Source: Synergistaceae bacterium
GTDB taxonomy: Bacteria > Synergistota > Synergistia > Synergistales > Aminobacteriaceae
Length of the DNA stretch: 44,854 bases
NCBI GenBank assembly: GCA_017443945.1
Contig: JAFSXS010000064.1
Span: 1-44,854 of the forward strand
Direction of reading: 5' to 3'
Positions 19,647 to 23,262 of the stretch are shown here, in pieces (position 1 is the first letter of the stretch; each line of letters starts with the position of its first letter). The notes beneath the pieces were generated by a model. It did not search any database. It was not told the DNA's origin and worked only from the letters and a program-made list of their open reading frames with translations. A program made the translations under genes and the position numbers.

Positions 19647-21016
19647 TTATACCCGATAAAAATATGTATACGTCTTAATTATTGTCATTGCAGCACTAAC
19701 AAGACCAGCCGTCAAAGCAATAGCCTTCTCATGTTTGAGTCTTGGAAAATATGAAATCGCAGAGAATCCCATAACAGCAAGCGGAATTAAATATCTCCCC
19801 TGCATTCCTTCACAAATTAAAGCTCCCGGAGAATTCCAGGTAAAATATAACATGAAATCTATAGCTAAGAGAGTCGCCAAACAACCGCCTATCATAATAA
19901 GACGCTGACGGAAATAAATTTTTAGCTCGCCAAATAAACTTCCTGCCATGACTACAGACGCATAAATAAAGCAAAACCATAACGACATAGGAGCTTGAAG
20001 CCAACCCAAAGTAGCCATAAAAGATCTTGCAAAAAATGTAACATCTTTATAACTCGTGATTATTGCCTTAAAGACTTTTAACGGGTTCGCTGCAAAAAAT
20101 TTCATTTGTTCAGCCGGATTTATGTATATGCCGGAATTAAAACCTGACGCAGCATTTAATCTCGTTACACCCAAATAAAGCCATGAGAGCGACGAGATAA
20201 GACAAACAAGCAAAATAATAATCCCTAACGTAATATAATTTTTCCTGCTGCCGAGTCTCTTATACGGAATTACAAAATATAACAGCATTATAGTCCCGTA
20301 AACTTGTTTTAACAGGCCGATAATAATAGCTGATAATAGAAGAATAAAAATTTGAGAAGGCTTTAATCTTTCGTCAGTCCTTGCGAGTGATAATATATAA
20401 GCTGATACAAGAATGCTTACACTATTTATTACAGCGTCGGCAGCTATTGAAGCACTTTCGGCGAGAAACGTAGGCATCATTGCAATCAAGAATATGAGAA
20501 AACTTTTTTCGGGCAAGATCTTTATCGCTAGAAAAATACACAACGTTACGAACAATACAGCCGCAAATCTCATCGAGTAGAAGTAATGCCCCCCCCCCCC
20601 TTAGTGAAATTACGTACAAGATAAGCCGCTATTACCTGAGGAAAATATACAACAGGAGCATATGAGCCAGTATTATTTATTTGCATTGTAATTATATCGT
20701 TGAAATTAACAGGGCTTGACATAAATTCGGAAATATCGCCGAGTGAAAAACGTTTTTCAGCGTCAAAGGGATTATCAATATATTTTTTCGGGAAGAATGC
20801 AGCCGGTACGCGTGAGAGTAAATTTTTATAGCTGTCTTCTCTATTTTCTGTAGGGCTTATGAATATTGATTCTGAAATTTGCCATGCTCTTGCGAAGTGA
20901 TTCGGCTCGTCTGGAACTTGATAAACGGGCGTTAAGAATGTCAATATTGTCCCGGCAACTAGCATAAATATAACGTAAATATATTCAAGTTTTAGGCGCG
21001 TGAAAAACTTTATCAT
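19647..21016 (-). pseudogene. DUF2142-type membrane protein, split by a frameshift at a G12 tract
   Basis: Two minus-strand frames make one protein. The first (ATG 21016, AGGAG upstream at about 21026-21031) has a membrane segment, the family block TPVYQVPDEPNHFARAW and APVVYFPQVIAAYLVRN, then reads through a run of 12 G (20600-20589) into a stop at 20572-20570. The second frame continues from the tract (HYFYSMRFAAVLF) with about eight membrane segments to 19647. With 10 or 13 G the two are in frame and give about 455 residues, a plausible full length. DUF2142 proteins are polytopic and often lie near surface-glycan genes; their role is unknown. In the present state the gene is off, through phase variation, decay or a homopolymer sequencing error. 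Confidence 0.75.
20589..20600. repeat. Homopolymer of 12 C (12 G in the gene sense)
   Basis: An uninterrupted C12 run, striking in a window this AT-rich, inside the coding region of the DUF2142-type gene. A change of +1 or -2 restores the frame. Confidence 0.9.
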
Positions 21017-21040: not shown

Positions 21041-21075
21041 AAAAAAAATTCCTCCCGATTGTGAGTCAGGAGGAA
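21041..21075 (-). terminator. Rho-independent terminator of the EF-G-like gene
   Basis: On the minus strand TTCCTCC pairs with GGAGGAA across the loop, followed by eight T (21048-21041). It ends transcription between the EF-G-like gene and the DUF2142-type gene. Confidence 0.85.
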
Positions 21076-21086
21076 ATAAAAATTTT

Positions 21087-23153
21087 TTACTCTTCGTCCT
21101 CGTCTTCCTTCTTGTGAGCGGCAATAACTTTTTTCGCAATGTCGCCGGGTACTTCTTCATAGTGTGAATATTCCATAGAGAAAGAACCTTCACCGGAAGT
21201 CATCGAACGCAAAATAATTGCATATCTGAACATTTCAGCTAACGGAGCTTGCGCCTTTACAACCTGCAATTTTCCGTGAGCTTCCATTCCCATAATACGG
21301 CCTCTGCGTGAATTGAAGTCGCCCATTACATCGCCCATAAATCTTTCAGGAACAGTAACTTCAACATCCATAACAGGCTCAAGCAAAACGGGGTTAGCGT
21401 CCATAATTCCTTTCTTGAATGACAAACGGGTCGCGAGCTTGAATGACATTTCAGAGCTGTCTACATCATGATATGAACCGTAATATAATTCTGCGCTGAA
21501 ATCAACAACGGGGAATCCTGCTAACGGGCCTGCGTTCATGTACTCGCGTAAACCTTTTTCAACGGCGGGAATAAAGTTTCTCGGCACTGCACCGCCAACA
21601 ACACTGTCAATAAATTCAAAGCCTGCGCCTCTTTCCAACGGTCTGTAACGAATATAAACATCACCGTATTGGCCGTGTCCGCCTGACTGCTTCTTGTGCT
21701 TGCCTTGAGCTTCTGACATTTTGCGTATTGTTTCACGATAAGGAACCTGCGGAGTCTTTGTGTCGAGTTCAACGCCGTAACGTTCCTTCATTTTTGCGAG
21801 AACTATATCAATATGCATGTCGCCCATTCCTGATAACACGTTGTCGCGAGTCTCTGGATTCTTCTCGAACGTCAAGCAGCAGTCTTCTTCAAGTGTGCGG
21901 GATATAGCATTTCCGAGCTTGTCTTCATCTGCGCGCGATTTTGCAATAACTGCAACACTGTAAACAGGTTTTGGAAATTCAATCGCTGAAAATTTACCGG
22001 AAAATCCGCCCTTAACCGCTAAAGTGTGGCCGACTCTCGCGCTCTGCAACTTAGGAATCGCAACTATATCACCCGCAATAACTTCTTTAACGTCTTTGCC
22101 GTCTTTGCCGGTCATTAATTTAAATGAGCTGATTCTCTCGTCCTCGCCCTGATTGACATTATAAATATTGCTGCCCTCTGATGATAAACTGCCGGAATAA
22201 ACGCGGATAAATGAAAGTTTACCGACAAAAGCGTCCGCCATAACTTTAAAGCACAACGCAGAAAACGGAGCATCAATTTTCGGCTCTGCACTCTCGACCG
22301 CGCCAATATCAACAGGAGACGGGAAATAATCCGCAGCAAAATCCATAAATTGTTGGACTCCGATATTTGTCGTAGCAGAAAGAACAGCAACAGGCATGAC
22401 TCGACGTGCTGCAATGGCCTTTTTCAGTGTGCGCGCAAAATCTTCATCGGAAATTGACTCGCCCTCTAAATATTTTTCCATTAGTGCGTCGTCCATTTCT
22501 ACAGCAGCTTCGATTAACGCCTCTTTTGATGACTCGCACTCGTCAGCAAGATCTGCAGGGACTTCAACTTCTGTAAATTTTCCGCTTCCGTCTGGCTTGT
22601 AGGTGTAGGCTTTACCCTTGAGAACGTCAACGACTCCCGTAAATTTATCTGCTGCACCAATCGGCAAAAACACGGGCAGAGCGTTATTTGTAAACTGCGA
22701 TTTGATGTCGGCTAGGACTTTCTCAAAATCTGCGTTTTCTCTGTCCATTTTCGAAATAACGAATGCAACGGGTGATTTATGGTGCTCTGAATATTCCCAT
22801 GCTTTACTTGTTTGGACTTCGATTCCTCCGACTGAACTCACGAGAATAACGGCTGTATCTGCGACTCTAATTGCTGCGCTCATTTCTCCTGTGAAATCAG
22901 CATAGCCCGGCGCGTCGAGAATATAAAAAGTTTTTCCCTTGCGCTCAAGAGTCATTAATGATGTGCTGATTGAGATATTGCGCTTTTGTTCTTCGGACTG
23001 AAAATCGCTGACTGTGTTTCCGTTCTGAACTGAACCCATACGGGTTATATTGCCGTTGTCGAAGAGCATTGCTTCAGCTAGTGTAGTTTTTCCTGCTCCT
23101 CCGTGTGCACATAATGCGAAGCTCCTTGTATCTTCCGGCTTACGTGCCCCCAT
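21087..23153 (-). CDS. EF-G-like translational GTPase
   Basis: The protein of about 688 residues has EF-G architecture: a G domain with P-loop CAHGGAGKTTLAEAM, LDAPGYADF and SKMDREN, then domains II-V (SGGHGQYGDVYIRYRP; SSEMSFKLATRLSFKKGI; the domain V block RGRIMGMEA). The G motifs differ from canonical EF-G ([21 protein letters not shown]), which places it in the EF-G2-like paralogue group found in spirochaetes, Thermotoga and many anaerobes; its role is not settled. I choose ATG 23153, 13 bases after GGAAGG; an in-frame GTG at 23165 lies too close to that site. An acidic tail (KKEDEDEE) ends the protein. Confidence 0.88.
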   Translation of the reverse strand: MGARKPEDTRSFALCAHGGAGKTTLAEAMLFDNGNITRMGSVQNGNTVSDFQSEEQKRNISISTSLMTLERKGKTFYILDAPGYADFTGEMSAAIRVADTAVILVSSVGGIEVQTSKAWEYSEHHKSPVAFVISKMDRENADFEKVLADIKSQFTNNALPVFLPIGAADKFTGVVDVLKGKAYTYKPDGSGKFTEVEVPADLADECESSKEALIEAAVEMDDALMEKYLEGESISDEDFARTLKKAIAARRVMPVAVLSATTNIGVQQFMDFAADYFPSPVDIGAVESAEPKIDAPFSALCFKVMADAFVGKLSFIRVYSGSLSSEGSNIYNVNQGEDERISSFKLMTGKDGKDVKEVIAGDIVAIPKLQSARVGHTLAVKGGFSGKFSAIEFPKPVYSVAVIAKSRADEDKLGNAISRTLEEDCCLTFEKNPETRDNVLSGMGDMHIDIVLAKMKERYGVELDTKTPQVPYRETIRKMSEAQGKHKKQSGGHGQYGDVYIRYRPLERGAGFEFIDSVVGGAVPRNFIPAVEKGLREYMNAGPLAGFPVVDFSAELYYGSYHDVDSSEMSFKLATRLSFKKGIMDANPVLLEPVMDVEVTVPERFMGDVMGDFNSRRGRIMGMEAHGKLQVVKAQAPLAEMFRYAIILRSMTSGEGSFSMEYSHYEEVPGDIAKKVIAAHKKEDEDEE

Positions 23154-23262
23154 TTGTATAAACACCTTCCCTTATTGTATGTATTAAATAAATGAATGAT
23201 GTAAATATTATATTACGCTGAGTGAAATTTTTGATGTAAAATTTTTATTCGCGTAAAATCTA

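Follow-up and report, generated by a model that had tools for sequence, protein, structure and literature searches.

Phase variation through simple repeats is usually explained by passive slippage on tracts that were born by chance and kept by selection. For poly-G tracts, replication slippage is the established route of frame switching (PMC6321876, PMC4235727). The phasome of Campylobacter jejuni has dozens of G tracts (29 of seven or more in NCTC11168; PMC4965091), mostly intragenic and in surface-structure genes, and its tracts of eight or more are known to switch (PMC6321876). Similarly, in the poly-G switches of Neisseria, such as hmbR and hpuAB, an in-frame G tract gives ON/OFF expression (PMC3786947, PMC4235727). 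No conserved motif or fixed spacing is described beside the Campylobacter tracts in the accessible text of the two studies (PMC4965091, PMC6321876), and the same holds for a common flanking motif at the Neisseria switches, which belong to other gene families (PMC3786947, PMC4235727). In a third arrangement, the tract lies in a promoter spacer, between the -35 and -10 elements. The locus that we describe here resembles the first two systems in that a long G tract interrupts or restores a coding frame, and its genome resembles that of C. jejuni in having dozens of such tracts. Unlike C. jejuni, however, this genome has MutS, its tract lengths peak at 12 G, and a motif at a species-specific distance precedes most of its tracts. 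Unlike promoter-spacer tracts, the tract at this locus and most others of the genome lie inside coding frames.

The window, by which we mean the whole stretch of DNA analysed (44,854 nucleotides from a Synergistaceae bacterium), had been given a sequence-only reading. That reading pointed to an uninterrupted run of 12 G inside a coding region at 19647-21016, flanked by frames that are two halves of one DUF2142-type protein and that would be rejoined by 10 or 13 G. The run, the two halves and the coordinates were all borne out. The features to which we refer are the following:

19647-21016, minus strand: DUF2142 (PF09913) membrane-protein gene, OFF as assembled (frames and Pfam match)
20589-20600, minus strand: G12 tract, the candidate frame switch, with 10 or 13 G giving the open frame (sequence, run-length spectrum, and ortholog L112 with G12 in frame)
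20601-20603, minus strand: spacer TAA between motif and tract (sequence; species-specific spacing)
20604-20616, minus strand: upstream motif TACGTAATTTCAC (sequence, with motif and spacing statistics)
21049-21075, minus strand: terminator-like hairpin in the interval between the EF-G-like gene and the DUF2142 gene (consensus match only)
21087-23165, minus strand: EF-G-like neighbour gene, upstream (open reading frame; function judged by eye from the sequence)

The tract reads C12 on the plus strand and G12 on the minus strand, and is the sole G/C run of at least 8 in the window, where the spectrum of G/C run lengths passes from 6 directly to 12. Overlapping G8 matches number 5 against 0.11 expected, a count reached by none of 100 shuffles of the window. 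The reading frame of the upstream half begins with the ATG at 21016. With 12 G it continues as ...NFTKGGGGITSTR to a stop at 20570-20572, for a product of 148 aa. Between 20588 and 19647 a different frame is open and encodes the downstream half (HYFYSMRF...). Either 10 or 13 G brings the halves into one frame, with 13 G giving a protein of 456 aa, and the joined protein matches the Pfam profile of DUF2142 from end to end (E 1.5e-51; profile positions 3-393 of 395; 175.9 bits against a cut-off of 30.1). The downstream half by itself covers profile positions 124-393. Because the EF-G-like gene and the terminator-like hairpin precede it, the DUF2142 gene may have its own promoter, although no convincing promoter sequence was found.

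The same Pfam family includes DUF2142 proteins encoded in the polysaccharide loci of lactococci and streptococci, such as WpsI. They are polytopic membrane proteins proposed to be cell-wall polysaccharide polymerases or transferases, and the accessible parts of the reports do not describe them as phase-variable (PMC12599335, PMC9746298). Unlike them, the gene in the window lies outside any visible polysaccharide cluster. By analogy, its product probably acts as a transferase or polymerase in making a surface polysaccharide, and switching could alter a surface glycan in a way that could matter against phages or host factors. No solved structure related by sequence to the DUF2142 protein was found.

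The sequence-only reading had taken the tract for a possible phase-variable switch of a kind frequent in surface-structure genes, and had suggested a search for other long G tracts in the genome. Comparative genomics supports the switch, through an ortholog with G12 discussed below, through the number of tracts and through an even spread of their lengths modulo 3. Across its 2.40 Mb (114 contigs) the genome contains 40 separate G runs of at least 9, and it is probable that it carries roughly 36 to 40 on/off switches of this kind. No run of exactly 8 occurs in the tract-centred stretches, and the tracts thus stand apart from ordinary short runs; A/T runs in these stretches do not exceed 9. The surface bias is also seen, as a tally of the switched genes with Pfam matches rather than a whole-genome statistical comparison: most of these genes make or modify surface glycans (glycosyltransferase families 2, 10, 87 and 92, LicD, FkbM methyltransferase, sugar-transfer ATP-grasp, an AlgX-like domain, DUF6625 and DUF2142), and the other matches are to TPP enzymes, dehydrogenases and a CDP-alcohol transferase. 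On the 3' side of the tracts there is a weak preference for A at the second base (25 of 37 in G000, 22 of 32 in G026 and 16 of 35 in G041).

Tracts of unrelated genes have similar bases directly upstream, with a motif of about TACGTAAWWTTAC. The information content upstream is 3.70 bits, compared with a maximum of 2.63 among 2000 random genomic G-site sets (500 in each of four classes), and de novo motif finding recovered a TACGTAAWWTTAC-like element in nine of ten genomes. Using profiles trained on other species, the motif was found at 57-94% of tracts and at 4-10% of shuffled flanks, the remaining 6-43% of tracts being below threshold. It lies upstream of the tract, mainly in G-strand orientation; it is partly palindromic and therefore gives some reverse score. 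The G of the GTA within the motif falls in all three codon phases, the switched proteins of four genomes (n=80) form 62 unrelated clusters, and the motif also lies 5' of tracts that are not in a clear open frame (6 of 12 in the genome of the window, 11 of 12 in G026). These observations indicate that the motif is a DNA-level element. The clusters and the codon phases rule out protein homology as its source, and a hairpin is unlikely as the motif shows no covariation.

G063 is exceptional in that the motif is at background level despite its belonging to the same genus. This genome has 44 tracts of G9 or longer (L083-L110) with no TACGTAA motif and with a weak flanking motif of another kind; judging from this genome, the upstream motif is not necessary for every tract. 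Several G063 tracts begin 12-16 nt after TTGACA, a promoter-spacer-like placement. In G026, two tracts lie shortly 5' of large secreted-looking proteins, which also recalls promoter-spacer tracts: the L090 tract (1520-1532) and the L134 tract (1759-1770) are in paralogous upstream regions that share 84% identity over 231 bases, and have a motif spacing of 10 nt, not 17. One has 12 G and the other 11, which speaks for the contingency-locus reading. A 10-nt spacing is also found in the unit CGTAATTCAC-G10, which occurs in several copies per genome in G024, G030, G036 and G039 and may represent a repetitive element or gene family.

The distance from the G of the motif's GTA to the first G of the tract, which we call the ruler, is characteristic of each species. 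At the DUF2142 gene it is 13 nt (from the G at 20613), the median of its genome. The medians are 13 in this genome, G041 and G028, 14 in G039, 15 in G042 and G050, 16 in G058, and 17 in G061 and G026. Spacing is narrow within each species and differs among species, with a spread matched by none of 5000 permutations; the species are related, which makes their spacings only partly independent. Motif-like sites with no tract are common, and neither GGG nor short G runs are enriched beside them at the ruler distance, so the motif alone is not sufficient for a tract.

Orthologs in different species show the ruler shifting while the motif is retained. A GT92-like gene has GTACGTAATAATACGCA-G14 in the genome of the window and GTACGTAATAATACTGGCGGTA-G15 in L160, from a goat MAG; L160 and G032 are probably one genome, since the identical GT92 sequence occurs in G032. 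At both the GT92 and the DUF2142 loci the distance is 18 nt in G032/L160 as against 13 in the genome of the window, and the motif is conserved. A transferase common to G041 and G026 has distances of 13 and 17 nt, respectively. The orthologs examined keep the motif and carry the tract at the distance typical of each species. A histidine kinase with one site across the genus illustrates how the tract varies with the motif: a tract of G9 to G13 accompanies AGTAAAAT, the tract is interrupted in one sequence that has AGCAAAAT, and where GAGAAAAT or GAAAAAAT stands instead, most sequences either lack a tract or reach G7 to G8. The exception is the histidine kinase of G050, in which a long tract lies about ten bases earlier, outside the usual arrangement. 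In the hybrid histidine kinase L183 (G000:C93:33208-33606; orthologs L184-L212) the tract is at the very end of the gene, just 5' of the start of the next gene; a change in its length affects both the C-terminal tail and the extent to which the gene overlaps the next start codon, and this tract is possibly a switch of translational coupling.

The combination of motif and tract has a narrow distribution. Of the 43 genomes of the genus, 31 contain the pattern CGTAA-N6-14-G9; genomes such as G055 and G056 have no motif-flanked tracts. Among the 145 other Synergistota genomes searched, 6 contain the pattern, with 1 to 3 matches each, about the frequency of a reversed control. A stricter pattern gave 15 hits in 84,980 species genomes, of which 13 were Synergistales MAGs, mostly from ruminant gut, and the pattern of motif and tract gave no hits in viral contigs. 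As judged from these searches, the motif with long G runs is almost confined to one uncultured, mostly ruminant-gut genus of Synergistaceae.

On this sequence evidence, the DUF2142 gene very probably belongs to a set of poly-G contingency loci spread over the genome. Replication slippage in the tract would shift the frame, and cells would make either the full DUF2142 membrane protein or the 148-aa stub, the assembled sequence representing the OFF state. The switch would be a composite element, made up of the motif (about TACGTAAWWTTAC), a spacer of species-specific length, and Gn. We consider it likely that the motif is a functional part of this element, and probable that the two statements, contingency locus and functional motif, hold together. 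Because the spacing is tight within species, different between species and shifted in orthologs with the same motif, a DNA-binding factor at the motif may be envisaged whose reach differs by species and which would set where the near edge of the tract forms or persists. Our proposal that a dedicated, sequence-specific trans-acting factor recognises the motif and directs formation or rapid turnover of the tract at a fixed distance downstream is a tentative one, to which we give somewhat less than an even chance. Such a factor might act as a roadblock, the polymerase stalling at the near edge of the tract and slippage being focused there; alternatively, a nuclease cut might be extended with G.

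Other origins of the tracts were considered and rejected. Reverse-transcriptase-based diversification of the DGR kind finds no support, as there is no RVT_1 match in the genome of the window (96% complete) despite its 40 tracts, and in other members of the genus RVT_1 varies without relation to tract number. Hypermutation by loss of MutS is at odds with an intact MutS1 frame of 868 aa in the same genome. Target-site duplication around the tract showed no excess over permuted pairs.

The alternative that survives best, although we regard it as rather unlikely, is that these are ordinary slipped-strand contingency loci of the Campylobacter kind and that the motif is a passenger, reflecting a sequence bias in how tracts arise or in replication slippage and needing no dedicated factor. 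Phase variation requires nothing beyond slippage, G063 has as many tracts without the motif, and loose motif sites without tracts are common, all of which this alternative accommodates. It poorly explains, however, why the distance is tight within species, differs between species and shifts in orthologs, and why the arrangement is confined to one genus.

It is improbable that the tract is fixed, whether in a decaying pseudogene or in a gene that is always ON and whose 12 G were miscounted in sequencing or assembly. The assembly is a MAG, and short-read poly-G counts are described as error-prone, with contigs often breaking at such tracts, in the accessible text of one study (PMC4235727). Four tracts of the genome (G000) are located at, or a few bases from, the ends of their contigs (C18, C32, C77 and C109). 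They are 10 to 21 G long, with the G facing outward and no motif, and may be assembly breaks at real tracts or poly-G sequencing artefacts. At the DUF2142 gene, however, both halves are otherwise open across the full profile, and the orthologs argue against decay. When the 43 genomes of the genus were searched with the joined protein, four besides that of the window proved to have homologs (G032, G050, G041 and G052). The closest, in G032 (L112; 61% identity), is from another species and has G12 at the equivalent site, in frame, in a gene of 462 aa; those of G050, G041 and G052 are intact and have no G tract. As the G032 ortholog keeps G12 in an open gene and the others are intact, assembly artefact and simple decay are unlikely, and the comparison indicates that the G12 tract is a genuine feature of the lineage. 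An inserted cassette as the origin of the tract is not supported, since the tract-free loop of G050 has the length of the loop in our gene at 10 G, the loop of G032 being about five residues longer.

The frames of other tracts bear on the same question. Among 65 sense-strand intragenic tracts (from the genome of the window, G026 and G041), 22 are in frame and ON and 43 are OFF, 23 of them needing +1 and 20 needing +2, with lengths that come from short-read MAGs and are possibly off by one or more. This even split supports the view that length modulo 3 is free to vary, a behaviour expected of switching loci but not of fixed linkers or ordinary genes. Such a mixture over dozens of genes in three genomes would not arise from decay or a few errors, though unbiased errors at every tract could produce it.

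Least probable of all, and very unlikely in our estimate, is recoding, in which RNA polymerase or the ribosome would slip on the G run to give some full-length protein from the G12 gene, the motif being an RNA-level stimulator: long G runs are slippery for polymerases and in nearly all tracts that are clearly intragenic the G is on the coding strand, but that strand bias is expected anyway because poly-Gly is better tolerated than poly-Pro, the motif precedes tracts outside clear open frames too and lacks hairpin covariation, and recoding as the main function would be expected to favour one frame, whereas the lengths favour none.

In the accessible parts of the open-licence literature searched, we found neither a motif or ruler beside phase-variable homopolymers nor a report of a phasome in Synergistota. 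As far as this search extends, the switch at the DUF2142 gene is of a known kind, and the motif with its species-specific ruler is new. The analysis also documents a large phasome in Synergistota, in an uncultured lineage found mostly in the ruminant gut. If the proposed mechanism is true, the bacterium could place or maintain hypermutable switches at particular sites by means of a shared cis motif and a species-specific ruler, and homopolymer switches would be installed and tuned by a dedicated system, not by chance slippage alone. The question of whether contingency loci can be directed, which has been open, would in this way become testable.
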